From positions 1 to 27,582 of the IMG/VR virus record IMGVR_UViG_3300025264_000084: 27,582 nt of DNA; one strand, written 5' to 3'. Positions 1,198 to 24,212 of this stretch are shown in pieces. A program made the position numbers and the translations under genes. Numbering within the stretch: the stretch's first letter is position 1; every line of letters begins with the position of its first letter. Below the pieces are notes generated by a model that saw nothing but the letters and a program-made list of their open reading frames with translations, searched no databases and had not been told where the DNA came from. The stretch is from a virus.

Positions 1198-4100
1198 TTA
1201 TCTAGTGCTACCGATTGGGGCCATGAGGTCTTCCAATCCCGGTGTATTCGACAACGTAGGTATCTCTGGGGCGTTTGCTGGAGACCAGGCTTGTATGATA
1301 TCCCGCCGTGTCGCCTCTCCTGGGATGGTTTTAGCGGAAGACAAACCAAATCCCCAAGTCATACTCATCTGCTCTAATGTCTGGCCCTCAAATACTGGTT
1401 CTATGTTCCTACGGTTCTTCTCTCGTATCAGGCCCACGATCTCGATGGCTTCAGGTACCCCCTTCGCGTTCTTTAGTACCTGCTGGGCCTGGGGGCCTGC
1501 CTGTAGGTACTGGTAGTAGTTATAAGCAGGCGTACCAGGCTGGTCTAGCGAACCCACTAGCCTGGACAGCACATCGTCTGGCACCCCCCACCATGCCTGT
1601 TCGTAGATAGCTTCAGCATCACGCATACGTTCTAGGAATATCGATGCCTTCGGGTACTTAACACGGTCTATGCGTGTGCCCAGGTGAGTGTATTTAGACG
1701 GTACCCTGGTTCCGTCTTCGAACTCCCCTTTGATGTAGTCCCATACGTGGATAGGACGGCCTTCTGCTTGATCGGCTGTCCATATCACAGGCCCAGGCCC
1801 TATCCAATCGTCGTCACCGTGAGTGCTGTTAACTTCGTTCTGTAAGCCCAGCCGTGATATCTTCTGCCCACGGAAGTCCAGCTCTCCGTTGGCCAGGGTC
1901 TTGGGTTCCGTGTTCCAGTACAGATTGGCGATGACATCCCACGCCTGTTCTTCCCTACGGCCCAGGATATCTTCAAAGTCAACCGACTCTTCCATCAACC
2001 TACTCATAGCACCCAGATCACCCAGTGCTCCCTTGACCATGGTGCGCATCTGACTGTCCGAAGCCCAGTTAATAGGTATGATCCCGTCAGGGTCAGCCTG
2101 ACCGTTCATGGCTTGCTCTATCGAGTTGTAGGTAGACCTGCTGGCTTCACGGATCTCTCCGAGATTCTGGTACACCAGCTCCGCTCCTTCAGGTCTCTTG
2201 GCGGCAGCCTTAAAGTAGGCTTCATCCTGAGCGGCACGGTACTCGTCCGTATCTTTGATGGCCTTCACCGCATCTGGATACAACTGGTTCATATCGGTGA
2301 CGTTAACGTCCTTGGTATTGTTCCGTAGTCTATCTTTGGTCTCGTCCATCCAGGTCTTACCGCTTGCAGGATTTCTCAGCACCTTGGCTAGGTTAAGACC
2401 TATCTCATTTAAGCCGTTATAGACAGTTACGCTGACACCTAACGGCGCGATGGCCGTAGCCAGCAAGCCCAGACCGAAGCTGTCTCGGAAGGCGTCATTG
2501 ATATCCTGGGCGACCAGTGGGCCTAGCCTATTCCATGCCTGCTTCTTGATGCTACCAGGCTCTAAGGACATAACATCGCCAGTAAATGTAGTCCCTCTCC
2601 ACACATCATTTACAAATCCAGCAAATGGAGAGAGCTTACTCTGAACGCTCCTTCCTGCGATGCTCGCCCGATGACGGTCTAGTACCTTATCGTCTGAGTT
2701 CTTGGCCTGCCCCGATATGAACTGGGCGGCGTAGCGTACCACTGTCTGGTGGCCCCCCCAGAAGTCGAAGCGTAGTGCCCCTATCCGCCCCTTGCCGAAG
2801 TCGGGAGACCTGGGGTCTAGCTCAACGGTCACGTTATCCTGCAAGGACAGCAGGTACAGTATGGTGGAGCCTGTAGCCACGAAAGTAGATAGATCCCGTA
2901 TGGCCTGGGCTCTTACTGTCCGTGGGAACAACACATTGAAGTCATCCAGTGTGACCTTGGGGCCAAGAGGGATCCTGCCCTGCGCGCCGAAGAAGTTGAA
3001 CTTCTGGTATGCCATACCCCTGGGGGTAAGTATAGATAGCGGGGCTGTAATCCTGGCTGATACGAACCTGGGCGAGAAGAAGGCGGCGTTTAGGAACTTA
3101 GTGGCTCCTGGGATATTCTCCATAGGACCTAAGCCACCACGTCCCGTGATCCTATTGATGAACAGGGTTAGTTCTTGCATGTCCCGGCGCGTGACGCCCT
3201 GACCGTACCTAAGCCCACCGGATACATCCTTGTGTAGCTTACCTGCCTTGATCCAGTTATCCATGATGGTGTCTGTCACATCCGCCCTGACCAGGTTTAA
3301 GTAGCCAGTGAAGCCGCGCTCAGAACGAAGTACCACCTGGTTAGGTATCGCCAGAGCGTACCCTAGCGACTTCTTGATCCAGTTCATGTCGTCCTTCAGA
3401 GCATCTATGCGCTCAAACATAGTAGATACGAAGGACTCTTCACGTCCCGACATGCCTGCGTTCTTATCAGCTATATATAGACCGTGCTCCTGAAGGAAGT
3501 TAGCATACGGTCTTTCTCCAGACCGCCCGGTTACATAGTCATCAACCAGCTCAGAGTATTGCCTAGACTTGGTTGGGTGTAACAGTAACCGCAGTCCTTT
3601 AGGTATGTTACGGAAGAACTCTACGGGGTGGGTAGGCCCTAAGATCACAGCCTGCCGTAGTGGGGCCGAGAAGTCGAGGGAGCTTACGATGGCCTTAGGC
3701 ATCGACAGGAAGTCTAGGAAGTTCTCCCAGAACCTGGCCGCAGTCGTGCCCGACTTGTTCATGTAACCCTTCGCGGATTCTTCCAGAGACACCCCGTACT
3801 TCTTTTTGAGATCGAAGATGTCATCTAGTATCCGTAGGTTACTGGCATAGGGCAGGTCTCCACGCATGATCTGGTCGATGGACAGCACAGCGTTGGCACC
3901 AGTTATGGGTCTGCCTCTGCCTTTCCCTTTGATCCAGTCATGCACTCCCTTATAAAGATCTTCTACATCCTTACGAGAGAATTCCACTAGAGGGTTACCT
4001 TTAAGGGCTAGGTCAGGGTCTCCGCCAGTATCTACCAGTTTGGCGATAAGCTCACTACGGTATTCTGTAGATAGAGGGTCGCTGATCTGTCGTACTCTGA

Positions 4101-7100
4101 GCTTCCCCATCATATTATTAGCTATATTCTTAGCTTCTTGGGTATAGATACCTGTTTCTGTACCGTTGTTTGATCCGTGCAGGATCTTAGACAGTTCAGT
4201 AGATTCGATCTGCCCCATGATCTCTGCACTTATCTGCTGACGGGCAGCGTGTACCTTCTCAGATGCCCTAGCTACTAGCGGATCGTAGTGATTTATTACC
4301 TTAGCCAGCTTAGCAACAGGGTTATCATCATCGGCTATCTCTAAGGCCAGTTCTTTGACGTAGCGACCACCACCATCACCACCGGCGGCGGCGGCGTCTG
4401 CCTCTACCTTCTTTACCTTGTGCAGTTTCTTGGTTGACTTCTTGGTCGGAGTCTCAGGCTTCGGTGCCTCATCAGGCTCCAGTACCTTCTCCGCTGACAG
4501 CATGTCGGTGGGGTCTTCAGGGGGTACATGGCCAGGAGCCCGTGACCTATGGCCATATCGAACCTCATCTGCCCATGCCAGAGCATCCAGCATGGCGTCC
4601 TCACCAGTAAAGGTAGGCCCGTAGGTATTGCGGGTGGTGTACTTAGCTACTGTAGGGTCTAGGGCTACGCCTTCTTTAGACCTGACCCGTACCTGGACTC
4701 CCTTCGTCCGTGGGCCACCAGCCTTGTTCTCTCTAGAGACATTCTTTGTGTAGACCTCTAGGTCGGGGTCACTGTCTAATAATCTGCGTAGGGCCTGGGC
4801 ATCGTCTCCTACTATCTTTGGTAGAACCGACTTCACCGGATCAAATACTAAGTAAGATATAGAGTCTGGGTCTTCAGATATATTCCTATATATGATGCCA
4901 TCGTGACCTTCATCTTTTAATTGCTGGAACCCCGTCCGGTGTTTGCGCGTCTCCGCCAGTGGTATGCCAGCATCAAGGTCTTCTTTGAAATGAATACGCA
5001 AATTCATTCCGTAGATTTCTGTTTCATCTATAGGATTATCAATAGAGCCATACGGTTTTTCGAGCCTGATCTCTACGGGAACCACCCTCCACTTAGTCGG
5101 GTCAGGTTGAACACCACCTTTGTCGTAGGTACCTAACCGATCTGTAGCGGCTTTTCTTGTACCAAAATGAACACCACCGAATGTCCACTCCGTACCTTCT
5201 CTTAGATCTGGCAGCCCCTGTATTTTACCGGCGGGGCTGTCGGTACCATGGAATACTTCCACTTCAGTCGGAGGGCCAGGAGGACTCTTAGGACGACCCA
5301 TGCCCATATTAGGAGTATCCCATGGAATAACTCCGCCCTGAGGCACAGTAGGAGCTGGAGTTTCCATAGCCCTAGCAGCAGATGCCTTGGAGAACCCAGT
5401 AGCATGTGGGGTGCCGAACCATTCGTTCAAGCCTTGCCAGTCTTCCAGTGACCAGTGCTCTCCCTGTGCATCCTCAAGTCCAGCCGTCAGCCTACGGGAT
5501 ATGGTCTCTAGGTCGGGGTTACCCATCCCGTAATAGATGCCTTCTATTTCTTCTTCTAGAGTTGCATACTGAAGTTCCCATTCTGCTTCTTCTAATGACA
5601 TGTCAATGAACCTGGATCGGGCCACGTCTGCCTGTCCGGTATTAGGGTCTAGGCGTATACCTTCGATGGGTACCCACGCACGTTCGGCATCCAAGCCTAT
5701 CCTGGCGTAGGCTTGGATACCCCAGTTAGGCACGTCAGTCACCACATAGTCGGTGTCACCCAGGCGCATGATCGCGCTAGTCTCTATGTGGAGTTGCCCG
5801 TCTATTGCTGTATGGGGCCAGCTTATGGAGTTGGCTATGGCTGGGCCAGATACTGTCGGGTTTACCACACGCTCGTCAGTAAGACCGGATATGGTGTGGG
5901 TCTCACCAGGTGTGTGGTCGCTCTCGTTATTACGAGCCCCTATCTCATCGGCTACGGTATCCCCTGTCCTCTGGATGGCCTCCGTCTCGGTCATCGGCTT
6001 GCCGTTATCTATGCCAGCATACGGACGCCACCGTATACCCTGGTCGGACTGCTCGATGGCCAGGCTGGTTAGGAAGTTCTTGGCCGCTTTCTCACTCTTG
6101 TACTGGATGGGTTCGTTACTGCCAGGTTTAGACATGAACTGGCCCACACCGCCGCGCTCTTCGAACTGGTAGACGATCTCCTTGGCCGCTCTCTCTGATT
6201 CTTCTACAGCGGTGACAGCATCTCTCGTCTTTAGCCAGTCACGCAGACCCTCACGGATGACCCGTTCGAGCTGAGGCTCACCAGGAGTTTGGGCGTTGAT
6301 GTAGCGCACGTTCTCTAACATCCGTGGAGTTGGCCTGACGCCATCTCCAATGATGTGTTGAGCATCGTTAGTTGCGGCAGTCCACGCCGCTTGTTCGGAA
6401 TCAAAGACCTGGCTGCGTATATGATTATGGTAGAACGCTAGGTCAGAGAACTGATCGGGGTCGAATACTGGAACTTTATTCGCGTATGAAGTAGGACTCG
6501 TATATGCGCCCACCTCATCGGACAGACCGATCATAAACTTATTGGTCTCTTGGTTCCTGGTGACCACAAAGATGGTCTTGACCCAGTTATCCAGTAGTTC
6601 AGGGTTGTCCTGTATAGCGTCCCTGAGCTTGCCACCGTCGAAGTCATCACTCTTCAGTATCGCAGATACCTCAGCTACTTCAACGTCTACCTTATCTATC
6701 TCTCTGGCTACTATCTCGTAGCGCATATCCAGGGCTTTGCTGTTCCTGGCCAGTAGGTCAGCATTGAGAAGTTCCGCTGCCTTCTCTTTATTGCGGAACT
6801 TCGAGACTTTCCCCTCTGCATTGGTATGAAATTTATTCTCTAAGAAGTCGAACGCCTGCCAGTCTGCGCGGTCACTAGCACCGTGAGGTCTGCCTATCAC
6901 CCACTGGCTGTTTATCACCTCGATGCCAGTCCCTCTGGCAGTAGGGCTCTGGAATACGCCTCCATTACTGACGTCAGCGGCTCTGATCACATCATCTATA
7001 TTGGTGTACGGTTCGGTACCACCCATCCTTTCTACGTTGGCATTGATGACATTCAGGTCTGGTACCTGGCCCCGTTCGTTCACAGCCTGCACAGCCAGCT

Positions 7101-9489
7101 CTTCTGGAGTGTGTATACCAGCGGTGAACTCCTCTTTATATGCTGCGTTAGCCAGGCCGTGGAGTGAGTCCTCGGCGTCCATGGCCCCCATCCATTCGGG
7201 GATCTCAACTACTCCACCCTTCTGACCGGAGTCGATCTGACGGGTCACGATATCATCAAGGTAGCGCATGACCGCCGCCTTCATACCAGGCAGCCGGTTA
7301 CGTTTCGCAGCCTTTCCTTGGATGTCCTTGAGTAGTTCTGCCGATATCTTTATCTCTTCGCCCTTGAACTTCCCTGCCTTCCATCTAGGGACGATGGTCT
7401 TTCCTGCCCCACTAGGACGGGTAAAATCTATCCACTCATCTAAGACCTGCTCAAGTCGAGCACGGTAAGCACCCACACCAGCACGACCATCTTGTTCAAA
7501 GAGTCTCTGACCGTCAGCTTCAAAGGCATTTCGTATACCTGGGCCTGGGTCTACTATGTCTATCTCAGGATCTTTAAGACGTCTTAATCCTGCATCGTTG
7601 TCGCTGATACGCAGACGCATCTCTTGTGTAAGGGTTTCACCCCAGTACCGTCTAACCTCGTCGATACGGGCCTGCACCATGGGGATGGCTTCATCTACCG
7701 TCTTAGGTAGTTTGTCTGCGCCCTGAGTGACGAGCGTATAGCCATCACCATATTCCCGTTTGACCGCGTTTAGCCAAGCCTCCTCACCCTGGACAGAACG
7801 GATCGGGATATTTTGGCGTGTAAACGGATCCTCGATAGTACGACCCGTGATGGCGGCATCGGCTATCAGAAACTCTAATCTACGGATTGGGATATCCCAT
7901 AGTTTATGATTACCAAGGAAGATGCTTCCCCATCTATTGGTATTCACCGTGTCTCTAATGGCTATATCCTCATCTACGGCGGCATTAATTCTGGCGCGCT
8001 GGTCGTCAGATAGCTCATCTAGTTTCTTGCCGCCGAAATAGGTAGGCTCTACTCTGCCAGTCTGCTCTTCTAGGAGTCCTCGGGCCACAACCTGCTCGGC
8101 TTCTTCCGCTGCTTCTCGGACATTCTTTCTTATATTGCCGAAGAGAGTATGGAGGTTTGCGACTTCTGCTGATTTACCCCGCGTAGTAACACCAAGTTCC
8201 TCCAGGTCAGCCCACACTTTCTGAACTATGTCTTTCTGTTCGCGTACAAGGTCGTTCTTAGCTTCCACTAAAGAACTTAATGATTTACCCTCGCTACGTG
8301 CTTTAACTATTTGTTCGTCTAAGTCTCTATCACGTAACCTGATCTGATCTAGTTGGTTAGCTGCATCTTCCATGACCCTGAGTGGCTCACGCCCGATCCT
8401 CACGATAGTAGCCACGTCTTCAGGATCTGTTATCCCATGCCTAGCGGCAAACTCCTCTCTGAGGTCGCCAACCGACCTCTCTGCCCAGTTACGTCCAGAC
8501 TCTGTACCGGGTACGTTCCTGGGTGTTCTCCAATGGGCAACATCTGCCTCAGGGTCAGGGGCCTCTACGGCCACCCGGCGTGAGGGTCTAGTAGCATCTG
8601 TCTGTGACGCCCACCGATGGACCTGTTTGACCTTACCCATCAGGTTCTCGCCCAGTCTGCCCAAGATCTCAAAGGGCAACTCGGCGGCAGCCTGGGCTGC
8701 ACCTGGGATCTTAGGTATCGCTCTGGCCCCACCAACCAAAGCTTTCGCTCCTCCCCCTAGTAGAGCCGCACCTACAGCCTCTTCTGCTGCAAAAGGCAGC
8801 AACGCAGTCCTAGCAGCCCCACCGGCATATCCGATAGGGCCAGTCTTGCCTGCGGCAGCGATAGTTCCCCGGATAGGGGCTGTCGCAGGTGCTGCTACCC
8901 AAGGGAGTATCTCGCTGGTCAGTCTGGCAGCTAATGGCTGTTGTTGGTATTGCTCTCGCCACTCATCCTGCCAGGGTGCTAGAGGTGCACCTAATTCAGG
9001 GTCAGGGCCTAGAGGGGTCGGCCAAGGAAGCTCTGGACGGTCATAGAGCGATCTAGTGCCGAACTCGCTCATGATGGTGGCCCCTATGGGCTCGTCAACA
9101 TATTTCTGAAATGCCTGGATGGCAGCCATGGGAGCACCAGCCATGAACTCACGCGCAGCCTCACCCCCACGTCCGGTGACCAGACCACCAACCTCGGGCG
9201 GTATAGCGTAGGTCTCTGCCCCATGGGGCAGGTCGGCCCCAGGCATATCCTCTAGACCAGGTATGGGCAGGAACCCCTGAGTATCACGGGGTGGGGCTAC
9301 CATCGCCCCGAACTCGGCATGGTCTAACACATACTGTTCGAACGCATTACGGACAACAGGATCATCTGTCCCTACCTGTACGATGGGTTCGGTATCAGTA
9401 GGTGCCACAGGGCGCGATGGCATACGCACCTGACTGTAGTCGTCAGCATACGTTATACCTATCGGGTTAGGGAGACGGGGTGAGGTCAC
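1198..9489 (-). CDS. Giant 2763-aa polyvalent virion protein with ADP-ribosyltransferase-like domain
   Basis: One uninterrupted 8.3-kb frame with a GTG start at 9489, overlapping the previous stop by 4 bases (GTGA). Residues ~197-270 are Ala/Gly-rich and hydrophobic, possibly membrane-interacting. Residues ~376-432 look like a coiled coil. At ~1410-1558 is an ART-PolyVal-like domain: FHGTDSP (H1414), GGVHFGT (H1441) and a terminal SYLVFDP (D1550). Residues ~1930-2320 match a conserved region I recognise from phage large polyvalent proteins: LDFSAPLRQ (1938-1946), RSERGFTGYLNLVRADV, GRGGLG, FFSPRF, then VELDPRSPDFGKGRIG followed by RFDFWGG (W2244). Polyvalent proteins (Iyer and colleagues) are packaged or transferred multidomain proteins that act early in the new host. 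The gene sits between portal and scaffold, where MuF-like toxin or ejection proteins often lie. Delivery with DNA and ADP-ribosylation of a host target are inference. About half the length has no recognisable domain. Confidence 0.8.
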   Translation of the reverse strand: MTSPRLPNPIGITYADDYSQVRMPSRPVAPTDTEPIVQVGTDDPVVRNAFEQYVLDHAEFGAMVAPPRDTQGFLPIPGLEDMPGADLPHGAETYAIPPEVGGLVTGRGGEAAREFMAGAPMAAIQAFQKYVDEPIGATIMSEFGTRSLYDRPELPWPTPLGPDPELGAPLAPWQDEWREQYQQQPLAARLTSEILPWVAAPATAPIRGTIAAAGKTGPIGYAGGAARTALLPFAAEEAVGAALLGGGAKALVGGARAIPKIPGAAQAAAELPFEILGRLGENLMGKVKQVHRWASQTDATRPSRRVAVEAPDPEADVAHWRTPRNVPGTESGRNWAERSVGDLREEFAARHGITDPEDVATIVRIGREPLRVMEDAANQLDQIRLRDRDLDEQIVKARSEGKSLSSLVEAKNDLVREQKDIVQKVWADLEELGVTTRGKSAEVANLHTLFGNIRKNVREAAEEAEQVVARGLLEEQTGRVEPTYFGGKKLDELSDDQRARINAAVDEDIAIRDTVNTNRWGSIFLGNHKLWDIPIRRLEFLIADAAITGRTIEDPFTRQNIPIRSVQGEEAWLNAVKREYGDGYTLVTQGADKLPKTVDEAIPMVQARIDEVRRYWGETLTQEMRLRISDNDAGLRRLKDPEIDIVDPGPGIRNAFEADGQRLFEQDGRAGVGAYRARLEQVLDEWIDFTRPSGAGKTIVPRWKAGKFKGEEIKISAELLKDIQGKAAKRNRLPGMKAAVMRYLDDIVTRQIDSGQKGGVVEIPEWMGAMDAEDSLHGLANAAYKEEFTAGIHTPEELAVQAVNERGQVPDLNVINANVERMGGTEPYTNIDDVIRAADVSNGGVFQSPTARGTGIEVINSQWVIGRPHGASDRADWQAFDFLENKFHTNAEGKVSKFRNKEKAAELLNADLLARNSKALDMRYEIVAREIDKVDVEVAEVSAILKSDDFDGGKLRDAIQDNPELLDNWVKTIFVVTRNQETNKFMIGLSDEVGAYTSPTSYANKVPVFDPDQFSDLAFYHNHIRSQVFDSEQAAWTAATNDAQHIIGDGVRPTPRMLENVRYINAQTPGEPQLERVIREGLRDWLKTRDAVTAVEESERAAKEIVYQFEERGGVGQFMSKPGSNEPIQYKSEKAAKNFLTSLAIEQSDQGIRWRPYAGIDNGKPMTETEAIQRTGDTVADEIGARNNESDHTPGETHTISGLTDERVVNPTVSGPAIANSISWPHTAIDGQLHIETSAIMRLGDTDYVVTDVPNWGIQAYARIGLDAERAWVPIEGIRLDPNTGQADVARSRFIDMSLEEAEWELQYATLEEEIEGIYYGMGNPDLETISRRLTAGLEDAQGEHWSLEDWQGLNEWFGTPHATGFSKASAARAMETPAPTVPQGGVIPWDTPNMGMGRPKSPPGPPTEVEVFHGTDSPAGKIQGLPDLREGTEWTFGGVHFGTRKAATDRLGTYDKGGVQPDPTKWRVVPVEIRLEKPYGSIDNPIDETEIYGMNLRIHFKEDLDAGIPLAETRKHRTGFQQLKDEGHDGIIYRNISEDPDSISYLVFDPVKSVLPKIVGDDAQALRRLLDSDPDLEVYTKNVSRENKAGGPRTKGVQVRVRSKEGVALDPTVAKYTTRNTYGPTFTGEDAMLDALAWADEVRYGHRSRAPGHVPPEDPTDMLSAEKVLEPDEAPKPETPTKKSTKKLHKVKKVEADAAAAGGDGGGRYVKELALEIADDDNPVAKLAKVINHYDPLVARASEKVHAARQQISAEIMGQIESTELSKILHGSNNGTETGIYTQEAKNIANNMMGKLRVRQISDPLSTEYRSELIAKLVDTGGDPDLALKGNPLVEFSRKDVEDLYKGVHDWIKGKGRGRPITGANAVLSIDQIMRGDLPYASNLRILDDIFDLKKKYGVSLEESAKGYMNKSGTTAARFWENFLDFLSMPKAIVSSLDFSAPLRQAVILGPTHPVEFFRNIPKGLRLLLHPTKSRQYSELVDDYVTGRSGERPYANFLQEHGLYIADKNAGMSGREESFVSTMFERIDALKDDMNWIKKSLGYALAIPNQVVLRSERGFTGYLNLVRADVTDTIMDNWIKAGKLHKDVSGGLRYGQGVTRRDMQELTLFINRITGRGGLGPMENIPGATKFLNAAFFSPRFVSARITAPLSILTPRGMAYQKFNFFGAQGRIPLGPKVTLDDFNVLFPRTVRAQAIRDLSTFVATGSTILYLLSLQDNVTVELDPRSPDFGKGRIGALRFDFWGGHQTVVRYAAQFISGQAKNSDDKVLDRHRASIAGRSVQSKLSPFAGFVNDVWRGTTFTGDVMSLEPGSIKKQAWNRLGPLVAQDINDAFRDSFGLGLLATAIAPLGVSVTVYNGLNEIGLNLAKVLRNPASGKTWMDETKDRLRNNTKDVNVTDMNQLYPDAVKAIKDTDEYRAAQDEAYFKAAAKRPEGAELVYQNLGEIREASRSTYNSIEQAMNGQADPDGIIPINWASDSQMRTMVKGALGDLGAMSRLMEESVDFEDILGRREEQAWDVIANLYWNTEPKTLANGELDFRGQKISRLGLQNEVNSTHGDDDWIGPGPVIWTADQAEGRPIHVWDYIKGEFEDGTRVPSKYTHLGTRIDRVKYPKASIFLERMRDAEAIYEQAWWGVPDDVLSRLVGSLDQPGTPAYNYYQYLQAGPQAQQVLKNAKGVPEAIEIVGLIREKNRRNIEPVFEGQTLEQMSMTWGFGLSSAKTIPGEATRRDIIQAWSPANAPEIPTLSNTPGLEDLMAPIGSTR

Positions 9490-16219: not shown

Positions 16220-16625
16220 TCGGTACCACTACCTCCTTGGCTTCCTTAGCCAGCTTCCTGATCTCCGAGAGGGTCTGCTTAGCATTGTCCTCATTCCCGG
16301 CTACGTTCATCTTATACTTCTCAGGCCACGCCCCGTTCAATGCAAAGATCAGCAATGTCGGGTTCTGCCCCGGCTTCATCTCCTCGATCAACGCAAACAT
16401 TTTGGACTCAAGATACTCCCGGTGGCTCTGCCTCGCATGATCATACTTAGCCCGGAAACCGTGTAGGTCATCCTTGAACCACCGATCCACCGTAGACCTG
16501 TCGATCTCGGCTACCTTCGCAGCGTTCCGGACAGTCCCCAACTCGGCGTAGGCCCTCAGATATCTATCCTGTCTTTCCAACACCGCTTCTTTACTATTAC
16601 TAGCCATGTGCACACCTGTGCGCAC
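16170..16625 (-). CDS. terS: Terminase small subunit (DNA recognition)
   Basis: A 151-aa protein with an N-terminal helix-turn-helix typical of TerS: YLRAYAELGTVRNAAKVAEI followed by DRSTVDRWFKDD. Next come a charged helical region (HARQSHREYLESKMFALIEEM) and NPTLLIFALNGAWPEKYKMN, a pattern common in these proteins. TerS binds the packaging start site and loads TerL. I prefer GTG at 16625 because AGGAGGG (16636-16642) is about 10 bases away. The ATG at 16607 is too far from it, although it is the more conventional codon. The first codons fall inside an array of short GC-rich repeats. It is the first gene of the leftward block. Confidence 0.85.
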   Translation of the reverse strand: MRTGVHMASNSKEAVLERQDRYLRAYAELGTVRNAAKVAEIDRSTVDRWFKDDLHGFRAKYDHARQSHREYLESKMFALIEEMKPGQNPTLLIFALNGAWPEKYKMNVAGNEDNAKQTLSEIRKLAKEAKEVVVPNGDDGNGASPIRTDAV

Positions 16626-16691
16626 ACCCTGTGCGCCCTCCTAAAATGACTAAGCGCACACCCTGTGCACCTAAGTGTGCAGGTGTGTGCG
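16607..16691. repeat. Iteron-like array over the TerS start
   Basis: GCGCACACCCTGTGC occurs exactly at 16620-16634 and 16654-16668, 34 bases apart. A related copy, TGTGCACACCTGTGC, begins at about 16607. An inverted, degenerate copy lies at about 16675-16691 (complement reads GCGCACACACCTGCAC). Units contain inverted GTGC/GCAC ends, as expected for dimer-binding sites. The array spans the ribosome-binding site and first codons of TerS. It could be an operator for late transcription, a translational control element, or the TerS recognition (pac/cos-type) site. The sequence cannot choose between these. Confidence 0.6.
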
Positions 16692-17012
16692 CCCTATTTC
16701 ACGCCTATATCAACATTTACTGGGGATAATCCGAGACACAATCCCCCCCAATGCTCGTTTGCTCCTCCTGTCTGCGCCGCTCCGCCAGAGCATAGCGTTC
16801 AAATCAGCTCTTGTCAATGAAAAAGGCCTTTATACACATTGAATTGTCGCGGGTAGGACACTATCTACTCATTAGACGGGTAAGCCATGGGGGGGTAGGG
16901 CCTTTTACTGGCTCGTGGCGCGTGGTGCATGTACTGGTACACGCTAGACAACTAGCCACGTGCAGGCTAGTCTAGTGAAGCCAGGCAAGTTGTCACACGA
17001 GGAGTAGAGCGC
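16643..17012. other. Divergent intergenic control region
   Basis: No convincing gene lies here. It holds the upstream repeat units and the minus-strand promoter. It also holds a palindrome AAAGGCCTTT (16822-16831), a stem CTAGCC/GGCTAG (16952-16957 with 16965-16970), and a longer-range inverted pair GACAACT/AGTTGTC (16947-16953 with 16988-16994). GCCACGTG at 16955-16962 recurs at 17152 and 17347. No rightward promoter is clear: TTGAAT (16839) with TATCTA (16862) at 17 bases is weak. The dense palindromes would suit an origin or a switch region, but nothing proves either. Confidence 0.5.
16789..16817 (-). promoter_or_regulatory. Sigma70-like promoter for the leftward structural operon
   Basis: On the minus strand, TTGACA (16817-16812) is followed by a 17-base spacer and TATGCT (16794-16789). 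This is a perfect -35 and a 4/6 -10 with ideal spacing. Transcription would start near 16782 and give a ~157-base leader before the TerS GTG. That leader contains the repeat array and a weak GGGGAT/ATCCCC stem. No other comparably good promoter was found for the structural genes. Confidence 0.55.
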
Positions 17013-17366
17013 ATGTCGAAACGCAGTCCATCATCCAGAGCGCGCTACGTAGCGCACACCATAGATGCTGAGCCCACGCGCTACATCGTGGCCACGCGTG
17101 AGCCAGTACAGCCTTATGGCTACGTACTGGAGAGCGCGCTACCTAGCCCACGCCACGTGGGCCAGGCTAGTCATACCACTAGATGTGCATCTAGTGAGCC
17201 CGTAAGTCTAGGCAGGCGCAACAGTGAGCCACGCGGATTGCCTACCACGTCCAGCCTACATTCTGAGCGCGCGCCTATAGGCCACTCACGATTGAGCCAG
17301 CATCGGCGCAAGCTCAAGAATCTATCTAAGCCATTCCTGCGCTCGGGCCACGTGAAGGTGTGCTGA
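17013..17366 (+). CDS. Doubtful small basic Ser/Arg-rich protein
   Basis: A 117-aa frame with ATG at 17013 and AGGAG at 16999-17003, a well-placed ribosome-binding site. The product is rich in Ser, Arg, Pro and His and has loose internal repetition (RARYVA, TRYIVA, GYVLESALP). Against it, the DNA is crowded with short palindromes such as GCGCTACGTAGCGC (17042-17055), repeats such as AGAGCGCGCTAC, and one copy of the intergenic palindrome (17177-17196), which elsewhere avoids clear coding sequence. It may be a real gene, a degraded one, or a structured regulatory region that is open by chance. No domain is recognised. Confidence 0.3.
   Translation: MSKRSPSSRARYVAHTIDAEPTRYIVATREPVQPYGYVLESALPSPRHVGQASHTTRCASSEPVSLGRRNSEPRGLPTTSSLHSERAPIGHSRLSQHRRKLKNLSKPFLRSGHVKVC
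17177..17196 (+). repeat. Palindromic repeat R1
   Basis: Exact CACTAGATGTGCATCTAGTG: two 9-base complementary arms around TG. This is the only copy inside a (doubtful) open reading frame, and its flanks do not extend the stem. Confidence 0.9.
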
Positions 17367-17446: not shown

Positions 17447-17466
17447 CACTAGATGTGCATCTAGTA
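17447..17466 (+). repeat. Palindromic repeat R2
   Basis: Core ACTAGATGTGCATCTAGT. After one mismatched pair (C17447/A17466) the stem continues with ATTCC on the left (17442-17446) and GGAAT on the right (17467-17471). It lies 50 bases before the SprT-like gene start. Confidence 0.9.
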
Positions 17467-18220: not shown

Positions 18221-18240
18221 CACTAGATGTGCATCTAGTG
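18221..18240 (+). repeat. Palindromic repeat R3
   Basis: Exact 20-base unit. Flanks extend the stem by CGCCT (18216-18220) and AGGCG (18241-18245), making 14-base arms. It lies 21 bases after the SprT-like stop codon. Confidence 0.9.
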
Positions 18241-18302: not shown

Positions 18303-18322
18303 CACTAGATGTGCATCTAGTG
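18303..18322 (+). repeat. Palindromic repeat R4
   Basis: Exact 20-base unit. Flanks extend the stem by AACCC (18298-18302) and GGGTT (18323-18327), again giving 14-base arms but with a sequence unrelated to the R3 flanks. Confidence 0.9.
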
Positions 18323-18369: not shown

Positions 18370-18389
18370 CACTAGATGTGCATCTAGTG
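18370..18389 (+). repeat. Palindromic repeat R5
   Basis: Exact 20-base unit, stem extended by one C-G pair. It ends 15 bases before the ATG of the 68-aa Cys-containing gene, with GGGAG (18392-18396) in between. Confidence 0.9.
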
Positions 18390-18404: not shown

Positions 18405-18611
18405 ATGGAAAACCTAGGTAGGCAAGCAGCCCAGGTAGAAGAACAGTTGAAAGTGGTCCAACTGTGCATGATGGGATGTGGTAGGCAGGTAGACATAGAC
18501 AACAGCATACCCATTGAACCTGGCTTGTTCATCGCTGGCTCACGCATCTGCAACCCATGCGTAGAGAAAAAGATTTTCAAGCAGCAGGCTGAGCGCATCA
18601 CACTCTACTAG
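18405..18611 (+). CDS. Small Cys-containing protein, 68 aa
   Basis: MENLGRQAAQVEEQLKVVQL is followed by CMMGCGRQVD and, later, SRICNPCVEKKIF. Two C-x(2-3)-C pairs suggest a single zinc knuckle at the end of a short N-terminal helix. The frame is open further upstream to 18330, but that would translate through repeat R5 and has no ribosome-binding site. ATG at 18405 has GGGAG nine bases upstream and is preferred. The stop codon TAG is the first TAG of repeat R6. Function unknown. DNA, RNA or protein binding through the knuckle is possible. Confidence 0.7.
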   Translation: MENLGRQAAQVEEQLKVVQLCMMGCGRQVDIDNSIPIEPGLFIAGSRICNPCVEKKIFKQQAERITLY

Positions 18612-18625
18612 ATGTGCATCTAGTG
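18606..18625 (+). repeat. Palindromic repeat R6
   Basis: Core ACTAGATGTGCATCTAGT at 18607-18624. The outer pair is T/G, which can wobble-pair in RNA but breaks DNA symmetry. It contains the stop codon of the upstream 68-aa gene. Confidence 0.9.
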
Positions 18626-18657: not shown

Positions 18658-19074
18658 ATGAGACGTATCCACTGTCAGAAATGCGAGGCGTTCCTAACTG
18701 TTGACCAGACACACATAGACGACGGGCTATGTGATATGTGCTGGCCTTACCGTGATGTGCCGAGACTGCACAAAGAACAGATGGAAGGAGACAAGAGATA
18801 CTGCACCGTGTGCGGTGATGGTGACCTGGAAGAATACTACATCTTCCCTGACTGTAACCCAGGGATGGATTACTTCTGCAACGACCACGAGCCTAAGAAC
18901 ATGACGTTCATGGACGTCATTAGGTTCAACTATCTCAGCACATACCCTAAGTATGACCCTAACACTGTGCCTACCACCATCGTGCGGATAGATAAGTGGA
19001 CGATACTCATACCCACGTTCCAACAGATGTGCGACTACTCCGAGGAGCTGGCGTACTGGACTACAAGAGACTAG
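18658..19074 (+). CDS. Cys-rich zinc-binding-like protein, 138 aa
   Basis: Not a recognised family. Residues 1-30 contain IHCQKCEAF and DDGLCDMCWPY, two CxxC pairs that make one zinc site. Around residues 48-80 lie YCTVCGDGDLEEYY and DYFCNDHEP, a second probable site. The remainder (NMTFMDVIRFNYLSTYP..., TTIVRIDKWTILIP) may form a small beta-rich unit. Shine-Dalgarno AGGAG lies about 7 bases before ATG 18658. The stop TAG is the first TAG of repeat R7. It belongs to the cassette series of Cys-rich genes and has no visible catalytic motif. Confidence 0.75.
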   Translation: MRRIHCQKCEAFLTVDQTHIDDGLCDMCWPYRDVPRLHKEQMEGDKRYCTVCGDGDLEEYYIFPDCNPGMDYFCNDHEPKNMTFMDVIRFNYLSTYPKYDPNTVPTTIVRIDKWTILIPTFQQMCDYSEELAYWTTRD

Positions 19075-19088
19075 ATGTGCATCTAGTG
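19069..19088 (+). repeat. Palindromic repeat R7
   Basis: Core ACTAGATGTGCATCTAGT at 19070-19087, without stem extension. Its left CTAG contains the stop codon of the 138-aa gene. The Shine-Dalgarno of the next gene (GAGGAG) begins directly at its right edge. Confidence 0.9.
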
Positions 19089-19098
19089 AGGAGAGATT

Positions 19099-19446
19099 AT
19101 GCAAGGATGCCAACAACCGCTGGTGTGGTACCAGACAGTACCACTTGGATACTACGACTACAAAGAGATAGAGATGCATACCACGTGCGGTACATCTCAG
19201 ACCGATGTAGAAGGGCACACCAGGACACGTCTATGTGAGACATGCTACCACTGGTATCAAGAGAGATACCCACAAGGCTGGTCATGTTATCCAGGTGACA
19301 CATGCCAACACGGTGTGTATGTAGGTGGCGTGATGTACGACTACCTATGTCCTGACTGTGAGGCAGGTGATGGCGTGTTGACTGGCCCTCGTAAGCGCAC
19401 GCCAGAGGAAATCGTCAGGCAATGGGAGTCTATGAGTGAGAGGTAA
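19099..19446 (+). CDS. Cys-rich protein, 115 aa
   Basis: Function not recognised. The translation contains MHTTCGTSQTD, RLCETCYHWY, WSCYPGDTCQHG and YLCPDCEAGDG, giving about seven cysteines plus histidines, probably one or two zinc sites of treble-clef or ribbon type. The C-terminus is charged (RKRTPEEIVRQWESM). GAGGAG lies just before ATG 19099 and also abuts repeat R7. High Tyr, Trp and Cys content is shared with the neighbouring 138-aa protein and with the N-terminal part of the amidoligase-like protein, suggesting a common binding role for this gene group. Confidence 0.75.
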   Translation: MQGCQQPLVWYQTVPLGYYDYKEIEMHTTCGTSQTDVEGHTRTRLCETCYHWYQERYPQGWSCYPGDTCQHGVYVGGVMYDYLCPDCEAGDGVLTGPRKRTPEEIVRQWESMSER

Positions 19447-19454
19447 TGGCAATC

Positions 19455-19474
19455 TACTAGATGTGCATCTAGTG
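19455..19474 (+). repeat. Palindromic repeat R8
   Basis: Core ACTAGATGTGCATCTAGT at 19456-19473 with a T/G outer pair. It lies 9 bases after the stop of the 115-aa gene and 30 before the start of the amidoligase-like gene. Confidence 0.9.
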
Positions 19475-19503: not shown

Positions 19504-21327
19504 ATGCCTACGATATTCATTAGCAACAGGCACTCAAGTGAACCGCACGACTTCAACTGGGTCTGGCCTTCGGACCCGAACGTTCGAAACGAGCACCTAA
19601 CTAACTGGGCCAGGACATACGATAGCCTAGGGGTAGGCGGGTGGACTCACAGATGTGGCTATGATGCCTACGTGTCCATGACACCACCACCGATAGACGC
19701 TGTGACCACAGGTGGTACGGTCATACCAGCGACGGGTTGCTTCGATGTGGTGACACACAGCACGCCCGGCTTGCAGTTCTACTGCCGTCCCGACCGCCAC
19801 GCCTACAACGATAACACTGGCAGATGGGAGCCTGGGTGTGGGCGTACCATCTCTCTGACTGGTACACAAACACACCGTTGTGGCCCGTGTAGCAGGTGCG
19901 GTGAATACGATAACGCCTCGTACCGTGTGGAGAGCACCGACCACAACATGACATACACCCTATGCCGTGTGTGCTACGAATACCTGACCTTCGACAGGCC
20001 ACGGTGCATATGCACACGCTGTGAGCGTGTGATTTCGGTGAATGAGGACGAGACAACCTCATTCGGTGATGGCAACTGGTGTGAGAACTGCATGAGTGAG
20101 TACACCTACACCTGTGATGTGTGCCAAGACTCTTATGACCGGGATAACGGTGCGTACTGTGAGTATTGTGAGTGCTGTGATGCGTGTAGTGACTACTGTC
20201 TGGAGATGCACCAAGAGAACTGCTCTGAGTACCAATACGAGCAGAACGGTGGTGGTGGACGCTTACAAAACTATAGCTTCACACCCTACCTCGTATTCCA
20301 CGGTGACACCCGAGCAGGGCAAGCCCTGTTCATGGGCGTGGAGCTTGAGGTAGACCAGCACCGGAGCAGAGACACTGGATACCCAGACATCGACTCGTTC
20401 CTTGAGGATGCCCAACGTATCCTCACACCCATACAGCGTAGCCAGAACGTGGATGATATGGGTCTGTTCTACTTCAAAGAGGACGGGTCACTCCGTAACG
20501 GTGTCGAGATAGTATCTAACCCGGCCACGCTACAATTCCACATGGATACCATGCCGTGGCGCAGCATCATGGACGCAGCCAGGGACAACAGGTTGTTCGG
20601 GCATAACACCGATACCGCTGGCCTACACATCCACGTATCGAGGACAGGTCTGGGTATCAGCAAGGCCGAGCAAGAGTATACCCTGGCTAAGCTAGTCATG
20701 TTGATGTGGCGTCTATGGCCTGAGTTGTTCGCCTTCTCACGGCGTACCGAGCAGACCATGACCCAGTGGGCCTTGCCCAACCACATGTTCGTACCCGACG
20801 TGAGACGGTGCGAGTGTGGTAACAATGGGTGTAATGACTGCATGTCCAACCTGGCTTTCGACCTGATCAAACGTGGCAATGAGTCCGTATCCAAGTTCAC
20901 CCAACAGAAGTACACGGCAGTCAACACACGGCCACGGGATACCCTTGAGTTCAGGCTGTGGCGCAGCACACTCAGGTACGACACGTTCATGGCTACCATG
21001 CAGTTGACCAAGCTACTGATCGACATGAGCATGGAGTTCGACATCACCCACCTGGGCCACGTGAGTTGGGAAGACCTTCTGTCCCAAGCTGCCAGCCACG
21101 AGTACACCCACTTGTGGGACTACGCCACCACCCCCGAGATACGGGAGAAGATGGAACTTGTGAGGCACAGCTGGTCTCCAGCAAACGCCGTAGCACTAGA
21201 TAAGCGGTACATGAACGACGAGCTACTGCAACTGAGCCACGAACGGTTGGTGATAGCCGACACCATAGCTGCTGCCGATATCCTATACCAACAAACCATC
21301 AATGCTTATACGGCAACAATCAACTAG
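19504..21327 (+). CDS. Zinc-cluster protein fused to a putative amidoligase
   Basis: A 607-aa protein. Residues ~1-120 are unassigned. Residues ~125-240 form a dense Cys cluster (CGPCSRCGEY, CRVCYEYL, CICTRCERV, CENCMSEY, CDVCQDSYD, CEYCECCDAC), probably several treble-clef or RING-like zinc sites. Residues ~275-500 match the putative amidoligase family (Pfam Amidoligase_2), relatives of the glutamate-cysteine ligase/glutamine synthetase fold: FMGVELEVD near 276, FKEDGSLRNGVEIVSNP, GLHIHVSR (373-380) and TLEFRLWRSTL (480-490). These supply the acidic metal ligands and the His/Arg positions of the ATP-binding fold. Such enzymes are predicted to join a carboxylate to an amine using ATP. The zinc cluster may recruit a protein substrate. 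The gene lies directly upstream of an amidotransferase-like gene. The acceptor is unknown. Confidence 0.78.
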   Translation: MPTIFISNRHSSEPHDFNWVWPSDPNVRNEHLTNWARTYDSLGVGGWTHRCGYDAYVSMTPPPIDAVTTGGTVIPATGCFDVVTHSTPGLQFYCRPDRHAYNDNTGRWEPGCGRTISLTGTQTHRCGPCSRCGEYDNASYRVESTDHNMTYTLCRVCYEYLTFDRPRCICTRCERVISVNEDETTSFGDGNWCENCMSEYTYTCDVCQDSYDRDNGAYCEYCECCDACSDYCLEMHQENCSEYQYEQNGGGGRLQNYSFTPYLVFHGDTRAGQALFMGVELEVDQHRSRDTGYPDIDSFLEDAQRILTPIQRSQNVDDMGLFYFKEDGSLRNGVEIVSNPATLQFHMDTMPWRSIMDAARDNRLFGHNTDTAGLHIHVSRTGLGISKAEQEYTLAKLVMLMWRLWPELFAFSRRTEQTMTQWALPNHMFVPDVRRCECGNNGCNDCMSNLAFDLIKRGNESVSKFTQQKYTAVNTRPRDTLEFRLWRSTLRYDTFMATMQLTKLLIDMSMEFDITHLGHVSWEDLLSQAASHEYTHLWDYATTPEIREKMELVRHSWSPANAVALDKRYMNDELLQLSHERLVIADTIAAADILYQQTINAYTATIN

Positions 21328-21364
21328 CACACCTATCCCCCCCTAAAGGGGGGATAGTGTGCTA
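21325..21364 (+). terminator. Strong hairpin after the amidoligase-like gene
   Basis: The left arm runs from the stop codon TAG through CACAC and CTATCCCCCC, with loop CTAAA. The right arm is GGGGGGATAG then TGTGCTA. A 10-pair inner stem and a 7-pair outer stem are separated by one bulged C. There is no U-tract directly after, so a classical intrinsic terminator is not certain. It may act as a processing or mRNA-stability element, and repeat R9 starts two bases later. Confidence 0.55.
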
Positions 21365-21366
21365 CT

Positions 21367-21386
21367 CACTAGATGTGCATCTAGTA
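21367..21386 (+). repeat. Palindromic repeat R9
   Basis: Core ACTAGATGTGCATCTAGT at 21368-21385, last copy of the series. It lies between the strong hairpin and the Shine-Dalgarno AGGAG of the amidotransferase-like gene. No copy follows downstream. Confidence 0.9.
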
Positions 21387-21406
21387 ATATATTTAGGAGA
21401 CACAAT

Positions 21407-22339
21407 ATGTGTATCATATGTCGCAAACAACCCAAGGTAAAACTGGACGAGGAATCCTGGGGTTGGTTAGAGAACTCGTTCGATGGCAACGACGACGGTG
21501 CCGGGTTCATGTACCGGGCCGACGGTAAGGTGCGGATCTTCAAGGGCTACATGACCTGGGAATCCTTCCGGGATGCGGTACTAGATAAGCTCGATATCAT
21601 CAACAAGCAGGAAGTCATCTTCCACTTCCGTATCGGGACGTCGGGTACCACATCCAAGGCCATGTGCCACCCGTTCCCCATATCCAAGAAAGATTCCACT
21701 CTGGGGCAGACCAAGCTTAAGACCAATGCTGCCCTGGTACACAACGGCATCATCCCTGGCTATGGTGATAAGGAGTTCTCGGATACCCATGTATTCGTGA
21801 GGGACGTGCTCACTGAGCTGCCGTATAAGACTAAGGCCATGCGTCAACTGATGGCCTCAGCCTTGCACAGTAAGTTCATGATCATGGACGCTGATACCAC
21901 CTATCTCATGGGAGATTTCGAGAAGGAAGAGGGGTGGGAGTTCAGCAACGGAAGCTACAAGTACAAGCCCCGACCCTATACATACAGCGGTGGCGTTACC
22001 TCTGCCTACGGGGGTAAGGACTACGAATACTCCTGGCACCACGGGTATTCCAAGACGGAAGAGACAGTCAACAGCTTGTTGACTAACAAGGACATCGACC
22101 CGTTAGATCTACCCATACTGGACCCCCTTACCGGGGTCTATATCTACCCGGTGGAGTGTCACTTCTGTGGGGAGCCAGTGTTACCCGACGACCTCATCGT
22201 CCGTGAGGACTTCAAGGATGAGGAAGATAAGCCCGTGTCCATGTGTGACCTGTGCTACGAATTCTACCAAGACGTAGGGCCAGAAGCCTACGCCCACGAC
22301 CTAGAGGAAATCTATCCGACAGTAACAGGAGAGAAGTAA
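21407..22339 (+). CDS. Class II glutamine-amidotransferase-like (Ntn hydrolase) protein
   Basis: A 310-aa protein starting MCIICRKQ. Cys2, exposed after Met removal, is the expected N-terminal nucleophile. Other class II amidotransferase features follow in order: DDGAGFMYRADG (29-40), FHFRIGTSG (72-80, with R75), ALVHNGII (109-116, the HNG oxyanion segment) and SDTHVF (125-130). Residues ~265-310 carry CHFCGEP and MCDLCYEF, an added zinc knuckle. The family normally releases ammonia from glutamine. A relative with peptidase or amidase action is also possible. ATG 21407 has AGGAG upstream. The open frame extends to 21359 only by reading through repeat R9. Adjacency to the amidoligase suggests a joint pathway. 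Confidence 0.8.
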   Translation: MCIICRKQPKVKLDEESWGWLENSFDGNDDGAGFMYRADGKVRIFKGYMTWESFRDAVLDKLDIINKQEVIFHFRIGTSGTTSKAMCHPFPISKKDSTLGQTKLKTNAALVHNGIIPGYGDKEFSDTHVFVRDVLTELPYKTKAMRQLMASALHSKFMIMDADTTYLMGDFEKEEGWEFSNGSYKYKPRPYTYSGGVTSAYGGKDYEYSWHHGYSKTEETVNSLLTNKDIDPLDLPILDPLTGVYIYPVECHFCGEPVLPDDLIVREDFKDEEDKPVSMCDLCYEFYQDVGPEAYAHDLEEIYPTVTGEK

Positions 22340-22740
22340 TGGCTGATACATGGGTGGTAGTCGATAAGATACCAGACTGCGATATGTGCAAGGTATCAGG
22401 TGAGAATATCCCAGCGTATGTTGATGGCCAAACTGTCATGGGGCCGTGGGCTAACATGTGCTCCGAACATTTTGAGCTGTGCGGTGTGGGCCTGGGACTA
22501 GGCAAAGGCCAGAGATTACTAACGGAGGAGCCAATGATGACCTACGATCCGAAGCGTGACCCACTGACCATGCACCCCCTGTATCCGCTGATGCAGGGGG
22601 TACTCCATGTCCTTAACTCTACCGCCTACTACGACAGTGGGCGGTGGGTCATGGATAGGGATGAGGCACTGACCCTGGTGGAGACAGCGTTCAAGCACAA
22701 GATGGAGAGGTTGGACGACGACCTAATAGAGGAGGATTAA
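22339..22740 (+). CDS. Small phage zinc-knuckle protein (MGPWANMC motif)
   Basis: A 133-aa protein whose ATG overlaps the previous stop as TAATG, with GGAG just upstream. Residues 12-57 contain CDMCK, YVDGQTVMGPWANMCSEH and GVGLGLGKGQRL. I recognise this as a pattern of small phage proteins in which two Cys and Cys/His pairs bind zinc and a GxGLGxGKGQRL stretch follows. The C-terminal half (HPLYPLMQGVLHVLNSTAYY, ALTLVETAFKHKMERL) looks helical and resembles no domain I know. The function of the family is not established to my knowledge. Confidence 0.72.
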   Translation: MADTWVVVDKIPDCDMCKVSGENIPAYVDGQTVMGPWANMCSEHFELCGVGLGLGKGQRLLTEEPMMTYDPKRDPLTMHPLYPLMQGVLHVLNSTAYYDSGRWVMDRDEALTLVETAFKHKMERLDDDLIEED

Positions 22741-22742
22741 CC

Positions 22743-23018
22743 ATGAGTGAAGAAGATTTTTTCCCCAACACCACGGAGTTGATGCAACGGATCCAACACA
22801 TAGCCACCCTGCCACAAGAGGTATTGGAGCGAGAGGGCTTGGAGATAGGGGGTGCCCTGATCAAGGTTACATCCCAGTGTCAGATAATGTCACGTCAGCT
22901 TGCCGAGCTTTTCGCCACGCTGATGGAGCAGGTGCCAGTAGACACACGATCTGAGCTGCTGGTGCGCTGGAACCGTGTGCAGGCAGAGCTAAGGCAGAGC
23001 ATCTTGTTGGCTACCTAG
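22743..23018 (+). CDS. Small helical hypothetical protein, 91 aa
   Basis: No family recognised. The sequence after the acidic start (MSEEDFFPNTTELMQRIQHI) is almost entirely predicted helix, with heptad-like leucines (MSRQLAELFATLMEQ, ELLVRWNRVQAELRQ), suggesting an oligomerising coiled coil. Shine-Dalgarno AGAGGAGG ends about 6 bases before ATG 22743, and the gene follows the previous stop by 2 bases, so it is in the same transcription unit. Confidence 0.65.
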   Translation: MSEEDFFPNTTELMQRIQHIATLPQEVLEREGLEIGGALIKVTSQCQIMSRQLAELFATLMEQVPVDTRSELLVRWNRVQAELRQSILLAT

Positions 23019-23104: not shown

Positions 23105-23284
23105 ATGGATATATTCTGCGAGAATTGCCGACATACCTATGTCGCCGTAAAAAGTAGAAGGCTACCTTTATGTCCTGGGTGTAGAGCCCGAGACAAGGTA
23201 GCCGACTACGTAGTAGATGAATGGTTAGACAACATCCAAATACAAGAAGAGAAGGAAGGTAAACCCGATGGCTACTATAGCTAA
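23105..23284 (+). CDS. Small zinc-knuckle protein, 59 aa
   Basis: A short frame with a strong Shine-Dalgarno (GAGGAGG) before ATG 23105. The translation starts MDIFCENCRHTYVAV and continues LPLCPGCRARDKVADYVVDE. The two CxxC pairs, 15 residues apart, form a typical zinc ribbon, followed by an acidic helix (DEWLDNIQIQEEKEG). It overlaps the start of the ParB-like gene by 17 bases. Ribosome-binding site, four ordered cysteines and promoter upstream make it convincing despite its size. Function unknown. Confidence 0.7.
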   Translation: MDIFCENCRHTYVAVKSRRLPLCPGCRARDKVADYVVDEWLDNIQIQEEKEGKPDGYYS

Positions 23285-24212
23285 GATCCCCGAATGTGTC
23301 CAGCTAATGGAGAACCTGACCATAGAGACGGTCACCCCCGAGCTGGCCAAGGCTTACATTGCAACCATAGATAAGGTATCTGGTATCAAGGCCCGTCAAT
23401 TCAAACAGGTTGTCATAGACCGCCTGTTCTACGACATCCTTGAAGGGTTGTGGATAGCTGATATCGACAGCTTCAAGTTCGATCAGCGTGGCCTACTCCG
23501 TGATGGTAACAATCGGTGCAAGGCTATCATCGAAGCCGATGTAGCTGTGCCAGTCATGATCAGACGCAACTGCACTGAAGAGTACCTGGCCCGTGTGGAT
23601 ACGGGCACCTCTCGTACTACCACCCATGTCCTTCAGATACATGCCGTACATAACCCGGTGGCGACTGGACGTGCCCTAGCCCTGCAATGGCAGTACGAGA
23701 ACCTTTATCTGCCTGGTTCACGCCAACGGAACCGTATCCGTGAGGGTCTCCGCCGGGTAGATAACACCAACATCCTGGCCCACTTACACACCCATCCACG
23801 GATAGAGGACTCAGTGAAATTCGTTGAGGATATGCCTGGACTCAAGGGTCTAGGTAGCCTGGGTGAATTCGCATGGTGCCACTATGCTATATCCAACGTG
23901 AACCCTGGTCGTGCGGATCTGGTGACTGAGTTCTTCAGACGCTTAGCCCAGGGTATCTATACCCAGACCAATGATGTACTGATCAGCTTGCGCAGCCGAC
24001 TGTTCCACAGCATGAATAGCGAACACCGGGGCAACCAAACTCATAGGCTGGCAGCAGGGCAGATGCCTGCTCTCGTCCTGAAGGGCTGGAATATATGGGC
24101 ACAGGGCGAACAGAGAGAGGTGCTACGGTGGACGCCCGATCCTACTAATGCGATGACCAACGAACCTGCCAACTTCGGAGAGATGTACCCGCATCCCATC
24201 CAAGCGGAGTAA
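23268..24212 (+). CDS. ParB/sulfiredoxin-like domain protein, 314 aa
   Basis: Residues ~55-122 follow a pattern I know from phage ParB-like proteins: DILEGLWIADIDSFKFDQRG, then LLRDGNNRCKAIIEADVAVP, then a segment ending VDTGTSRTTTHVL. The common core is DGQHR with a following Ala or Ile helix. Here it reads DGNNR (79-83), so the usual Q-H pair is N-N. The remaining ~190 residues are helical, with a conserved-looking HRLAAGQMPALVLKGWNIW near the end. In this fold, members bind or hydrolyse nucleotides or cut DNA. Which applies here is unknown. GAAGGAAGG upstream supports ATG 23268. It lies in the replication module. Confidence 0.62.
   Translation: MATIAKIPECVQLMENLTIETVTPELAKAYIATIDKVSGIKARQFKQVVIDRLFYDILEGLWIADIDSFKFDQRGLLRDGNNRCKAIIEADVAVPVMIRRNCTEEYLARVDTGTSRTTTHVLQIHAVHNPVATGRALALQWQYENLYLPGSRQRNRIREGLRRVDNTNILAHLHTHPRIEDSVKFVEDMPGLKGLGSLGEFAWCHYAISNVNPGRADLVTEFFRRLAQGIYTQTNDVLISLRSRLFHSMNSEHRGNQTHRLAAGQMPALVLKGWNIWAQGEQREVLRWTPDPTNAMTNEPANFGEMYPHPIQAE

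Follow-up and report, generated by a model that had tools for sequence, protein, structure and literature searches.

Two adjoining genes of a viral record, here called A and B, raise the question of whether they form one enzymatic system and, if so, which bond it makes or breaks. The record, IMGVR_UViG_3300025264_000084, was analysed over positions 1 to 27,582, and this whole stretch of 27,582 nucleotides is referred to below as the window. A putative ATP-dependent amidoligase fused to a zinc cluster had been predicted for A, and an N-terminal-Cys Ntn hydrolase for B. We find that the pair is a real two-gene module of phages, and the reading that ranks first is a two-subunit, glutamine-fed enzyme amidating a carboxylate.

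Gene layout and start sites

The left part of the window encodes structural proteins on the minus strand, including the large terminase; the portal and a 2763-aa protein were named from position and size alone. The latter, a single protein without cysteine and without a Pfam match, fills positions 1198-9489 of the minus strand within the structural block. The right part carries early and replication genes on the plus strand, among them PD-(D/E)XK and Prim-Pol genes, and A and B sit within its early part (Table 1). A divergent intergenic region at 16600-17010 contains the imperfect repeat GCGCACACCCTGTGCGCC at 16620 and 16654, besides further short repeats, and is a probable promoter region or origin. 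The 314-aa product of 23268-24212 belongs to PHROG 5931 (unknown function) and has a DGNxR motif, which we take to recall ParB-like proteins; it has no Pfam support for ParB.

The longest open reading frame of B begins with GTG at 21359. Its true start, however, is almost certainly ATG 21407, as judged from the sequence, since this codon is preceded by AGGAG and yields MCII..., with the catalytic cysteine at position 2 as in the aligned relatives. The hairpin between the two genes was not called by the intrinsic terminator scan, and promoter and terminator scans of the window stayed at chance level. Searches for close relatives using A or B alone returned one near-identical contig only, with eight differences in 15,985 shared bases, five of them near the end of the window; it confirms the window sequence but is not independent evidence.

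Table 1. Features of the locus, in coordinates of the window.
Feature	Position	Strand	Basis or remark
Palindrome copy 1	17178..17195	+	exact
Palindrome copy 2	17448..17465	+	exact
Palindrome copy 3	18222..18239	+	dyad extends into flanks: GCCTC...GAGGC
Palindrome copy 4	18304..18321	+	dyad extends: AACCCC...GGGGTT
Palindrome copy 5	18371..18388	+	exact
Palindrome copy 6	18607..18624	+	includes stop codon of preceding gene
Palindrome copy 7	19070..19087	+	includes stop codon of preceding gene
Palindrome copy upstream of A, ACTAGATG-TG-CATCTAGT	19456..19473	+	exact
Gene A, zinc-cluster amidoligase (predicted)	19504..21327	+	ATG to stop, 607 aa ORF
LIM-like zinc cluster of A, about aa 126-240	19879..20223	+	conserved Cys, LIM profile match
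GS-fold catalytic domain of A, aa 267-555	20302..21168	+	41-relative alignment, structure superposition
GC-rich strong hairpin between A and B	21327..21362	+	GCACACCTATCCCCCC / GGGGGGATAGTGTGC, one bulged base, without T-run
Palindrome copy upstream of B	21368..21385	+	exact
Gene B, class II glutamine amidotransferase (predicted)	21407..22339	+	310 aa, N-terminal Met-Cys
Ntn glutaminase domain of B	21407..21976	+	conserved residues, 28 sequences
C-terminal CxxC zinc-ribbon-like stretch of B	22154..22252 (approximate)	+	sequence

Fold and active site of A

Taken alone, A matches Pfam Amidoligase_2 (PF12224) at 18.5 bits (E 0.0019), below the curated cut-off of 22; nevertheless, all 41 relatives of A match this family at E <= 0.01 (best 1.2e-11), and A itself matches PHROG 16683 at E 4e-39. 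AlphaFold models of A and B were built on alignments of relatives (41 and 28 sequences, respectively). The model of A has a mean pLDDT of 70 and is good in the catalytic domain only. This domain superposes on YbdK with Z 13.4 and on glutamine synthetases (GS) with about 12, and all 50 entries listed for aa 267-555, at Z 11.4-13.6, belong to the GS superfamily; the structural neighbours comprise YbdK and plant glutamate-cysteine ligase (GCL), which are the best ones, glutamine synthetases and GmaS. Foldseek likewise gave 1r8g at E 5e-5, and also PafA, Dop and GS. The ExE, DGS, HxH and ExR motifs of amidoligases are present and conserved, residues E280, E282, D327, S329, E335, H375, H377, N474, E482 and R484 being invariant in the 41 relatives.

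A holds ten CxxC motifs. Within the cysteine cluster, C225, C228 and C240 are invariant, and C170, C173, C196, C204, C207, C219 and C222 are kept in 90% or more of the 41 relatives. The profile of the cluster matches LIM proteins at E 4e-7, and Pfam LIM is found in six of the 41 relatives; the model is weak over part of the cluster, with pLDDT below 50 at 223-250. Thus, the predicted ligase fold is present with its catalytic residues intact, the near-invariant cysteines bear out the zinc cluster, and A is best described as a LIM-like zinc cluster fused to a GS-fold amidoligase, for which ATP-dependent amide formation is predicted.

Fold and active site of B

The match of B alone to Pfam GATase_4 (16.2 bits) is also below the curated cut-off (23), with matches in 24 of the 28 sequences of the family, whose profile aligns with GlmS at E 1.3e-5, including the HxR..THG, NxHP and HNG motifs. 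The model, with pLDDT of about 90 or more over aa 1-180, superposes on EgtC at Z 14.1 and on GlmS at Z 13.6, so that the two are about equal as structural matches, within a range of Z 14.1-10 that includes GFAT and PurF. Residues C2, N28, G33, H73, R75, T78, G80, H88, P89, N113, G114 and D126 are invariant in the 28 sequences; among them are the glutamine-binding and oxyanion residues R75, N113, G114 and D126, of which the R and the NG align with GlmS. B and its 27 aligned relatives all start with Met-Cys, as do most others, and many of them also have C-terminal CxxC pairs. The anticipated N-terminal-Cys hydrolase is therefore confirmed in both fold and active site: B is, by model and alignment, a class II glutamine amidotransferase (GATase) of the Ntn fold, with a predicted glutaminase activity; the synthase-fold protein that adjoins it in most of 77 paired loci among the 80 described below suggests a possible coupling to a synthase.

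The pair across phages

Viral contigs were scanned with the amidoligase alignment, seeded without reference to B, and yielded at least 503 confirmed relatives, compared with about 20 annotated phage records that have a detectable one. The loci examined are the best 80 of these at least 503, chosen by the amidoligase alone, and all counts of loci and groups given below refer to this set. A B-like gene was found by the GATase profile in 77 of the 80 loci, nearly always adjacent and on the same strand, mostly 3-70 bases downstream of the amidoligase or overlapping it, and in some cases up to 3.4 kb off or upstream. The remaining three loci have an amidoligase, and no GATase was found over the whole of these records, and Clostridioides difficile phage AR1086-1 has one without an adjoining GATase. 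No fused A-B protein occurs among the 80 loci. Among annotated phages, the pair can be seen in Marvin and other cluster S mycobacteriophages, MEP401/402, C75C1 and a Christensenellales phage. The amidoligases of ctgrD200 and of the fecal record MT839723 are likewise followed by a gene that reads as a GATase.

Sequence grouping of the 80 loci placed the amidoligase in 28 groups and the GATase in 25 of them, and no other family occurs in more than three. The pairing is far beyond chance, the conserved linkage expected of the two genes is borne out, and the pair is a real, minimal two-gene module; as the next family is found in three groups only, the pair is sufficient in most phages. Protein distances of A and B correlate over the whole set (Mantel r 0.90) and weakly in the 28 dereplicated loci (r 0.31, with 22 of 9999 permutations as high). 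Amidoligases partner GATases of both types, 'MC..V.KP' and 'MC.LFG/MCG.YG', which suggests from the sequences that a glutaminase is needed.

The several small Cys-rich proteins noted beside the pair are real: the products of 18658-19074 and 19099-19446 contain 6.5-7.0% Cys, compared with 0-1.1% in the structural genes. As components of the module they were rejected, since none of the 80 loci has a homologue and there is no third conserved family. The suggested peptide tagging, if of the Pup type, finds no candidate tag, as none of the small neighbours (18405-18611, 18658-19074, 19099-19446, 22339-22740, 22743-23018) ends in GG[EQ]. In the wider sense of the original prediction, peptide tagging and modification of the cell wall or of a protein are possible roles of the pair. 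NCBIfam gave no match to A or B, and in PADLOC neither these two nor two other proteins of the window had one, so a catalogued defence system is unsupported.

Proposed reaction and its rivals

Class II glutaminases such as GlmS, PurF and AsnB usually supply ammonia to a partner synthase, and the ligation of ammonia has its archetype in glutamine synthetase; this makes two-subunit amidation the most economical reading of the pair, to which we give a probability of slightly under one half. A and B, probably made early in infection to judge from their place among the early genes, would act as follows: B would hydrolyse glutamine via its N-terminal cysteine, releasing ammonia; A would activate a carboxylate as an acyl-phosphate at the expense of ATP and join the ammonia to it, giving an amide; and the zinc-bearing parts, the LIM-like cluster in A and the ribbon in B, might dock the subunits together or to the substrate. 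We infer a joint action of A and B, with ammonia as nucleophile and the zinc parts serving to dock. As for the substrate, our guess is a carboxylate of the cell envelope (peptidoglycan precursor), followed by a host or phage protein. That the enzyme is dedicated to one such protein, at which the LIM-like domain would aim it to leave an early amide or gamma-glutamyl mark, seems rather unlikely. In the literature searched, no experimental work on an amidoligase/GATase pair turned up.

Several observations count against amidation. EgtC, a gamma-glutamyl hydrolase feeding no synthase, matches B as well as GlmS does, and A also resembles the gamma-glutamyl ligases YbdK, GCL and GmaS, whose nucleophile is an amine rather than ammonia. 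The absence of a fused A-B protein from the 80 loci, the amidoligases that occur without a GATase and the weak correlation after dereplication also speak against it. Close behind in rank, although distinctly less probable, are a ligase and a hydrolase on the model of EgtA and EgtC in ergothioneine synthesis: A would join the gamma-carboxyl of glutamate to an amine of a small molecule, peptide or protein, and B would remove or edit gamma-glutamyl groups. This agrees with the closest structures of A (YbdK and plant glutamate-cysteine ligase) and of B (EgtC), and also with the gamma-glutamyl cyclotransferase (GGCT), an enzyme cleaving gamma-glutamyl amides, that is added in Phage C75C1 and StenR_269 (annotations) and in one relative locus (L029). 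However, the GGCT family occurs in three of the 28 groups only and is not a regular partner, EgtC and GlmS are tied in Z for B, and a maker and a breaker of one bond would be futile unless their substrates differ. A modification of DNA bases or of a nucleotide, or an unrelated pair for metabolic scavenging, appears improbable: class II GATase domains do occur in phage deazaguanine DNA-modification enzymes, and replication genes are found close to the pair both in MEP401/402 and in the window (Prim-Pol), but no DNA-modification family is among the conserved neighbours.

A further alternative, doubtful to a slightly greater degree than the EgtA/EgtC-like one, is a reduced peptidoglycan-modification cassette of the phiEco32/RIO-1 type, which would alter the host wall so that other phages cannot superinfect. 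Such a role is given to phage amidoligase and GATase genes in PMC5498523 and, citing Iyer 2009, in PMC10580990, and the StenR_269 locus is annotated with GGCT, GATase, glutamine synthetase, D-Ala-D-Ala ligase and amidoligase together. On the other hand, the role is itself a prediction, and Pfam found neither GGCT nor ATP-grasp in 19 open reading frames of the window, including all genes adjoining the pair, on an incomplete contig, so that such genes may lie in another part of the genome; most relatives have neither. This alternative names a substrate rather than another reaction and can hold alongside amidation.

Whichever substrate is right, the pair is a self-sufficient two-gene unit in 25 of the 28 divergent viral contig groups, and relatives of its ligase are widespread. 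Since the system is minimal and its active sites are clear, co-expression offers a direct test of what phage amidoligases modify. With the cell envelope as target, the pair would represent a widespread superinfection-exclusion device, and with a protein as target, a new modification.

Palindrome arrays and a candidate binding protein

The early genes of the window share a second feature. An exact 18-nt dyad, ACTAGATG-TG-CATCTAGT, that is, the near-palindrome ACTAGATGTGCATCTAGT, occurs in nine copies between 17178 and 21385, all in one orientation, with none elsewhere in the window and no matches in 100 shuffles. The copies mostly lie 10-70 nt before start codons of early genes and precede both A and B. 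In bacterial genomes the exact 16-nt core gives isolated single matches. A role in RNA structure was not favoured, since the palindrome regions showed no z-score signal on RNA folding.

Among the 80 relative loci, 28 (within L034-L095) have a palindrome word of their own in 3 to 10 copies, e.g., GTTCGG, GTCGGG, GTCGGC, GTCCGA or GTATTA, and these copies are enriched between genes (108 of 186 vs. 39 expected). When words were mapped on 21 longer contigs of array-bearing relatives (among L113-L152), nearly all copies fell around the pair, in a single early stretch about 4-8 kb long, with few looser, two-mismatch matches outside it. Matching sites have conserved flanks, whereas the two arms of the word vary in concert, a pattern that operators of a binding protein with switching specificity would be expected to show.

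Of 30 families present in at least 12 contigs, an early protein of about 210 aa (e.g., L087:3274-3906, L063:3027-3626) tracks the word best. At 77% background identity, its same-word pairs are 72% identical (n = 7, lowest 66%) and its different-word pairs 33% (n = 30, highest 51%); identity among closely related same-word pairs is 64-90%. The word groups in this comparison were defined with the data already in view, and its pairs are not mutually independent. When all pairs are considered, same-word and different-word values do not separate perfectly, the lowest same-word pair being at 43%. All 21 loci encoding the protein have an array, 52 of the 80 have neither, and seven have an array without the protein, several of them because the locus ends early. 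Neither PHROG nor the annotated phages contain a match to the protein, and Pfam gives no convincing one. In the window, which has an array, no homologue was found (best E 0.4). Many array-bearing relatives encode WhiB, which indicates actinobacterial hosts.

The likeliest interpretation, drawn from these covariation patterns, is that the protein is a phage-private DNA-binding protein with an operator array, and thus a candidate cognate binder of the palindromes; possibly, it is a phage immunity or silencing protein of a new kind. This covariation of word and protein may be more novel than the pair itself.

Comparison with known systems

An array of comparable design is known from cluster O mycobacteriophages (Corndog), where 17-bp palindromes are predicted to be bound by a dimeric protein (PMC4351075). 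Both arrays consist of many exact short dyads, partly intergenic; Corndog, however, has 34 sites genome-wide in both orientations, whereas the nine of the window are confined to 4.2 kb of early genes.

The combination of amidoligase and GATase, which the original prediction supposed might not be described, has already been reported, with a putative function in each case, in OM43 phages and Marvin (PMC10580990) and in a podovirus cassette (PMC5498523). In the Methylophilales (OM43) phages MEP401/402, which have over 30 relatives with such pairs (PMC10580990), the genes for an amidoligase and a class II GATase adjoin in this order on one strand and precede replication genes, as in the window, and the GATase is 33% identical to B; their amidoligase differs from A in a longer N-terminal part and fewer Cys pairs, and the stretch read has no palindrome array. 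Similarly, gp105/gp106 of mycobacteriophage Marvin (cluster S), linked to secondary metabolism or host interaction as cited in PMC10580990, are a zinc-bearing amidoligase and then a GATase with C-terminal Cys pairs. Identity to the window pair is about 25%, and Marvin is an isolated phage with a known host; most cluster S records annotate the homologue of A as 'glutamine amidotransferase domain protein'.

For phiEco32, a cell-wall, anti-superinfection function was proposed (Iyer 2009, as cited in PMC10580990), and RIO-1-like podoviruses have a seven-gene peptidoglycan-modification cassette that includes an amidoligase and a GATase (PMC5498523). Its seven genes also provide GGCT, two ligases and ATP-grasp, whereas the window has two of these functions. 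In cells, a GS-superfamily ligase is functionally linked to an enzyme of the GATase-II fold in EgtA/EgtC and in GmaS/NMG-synthase. Their folds match those of A and B, but they are metabolic enzymes without a zinc cluster, and their sequences are too distant for membership. The window pair is a divergent new member of the described amidoligase and GATase pairs. The present work shows, in addition, how strong and how minimal the pairing is, that the LIM-like zinc domain is conserved and that no third gene recurs regularly.
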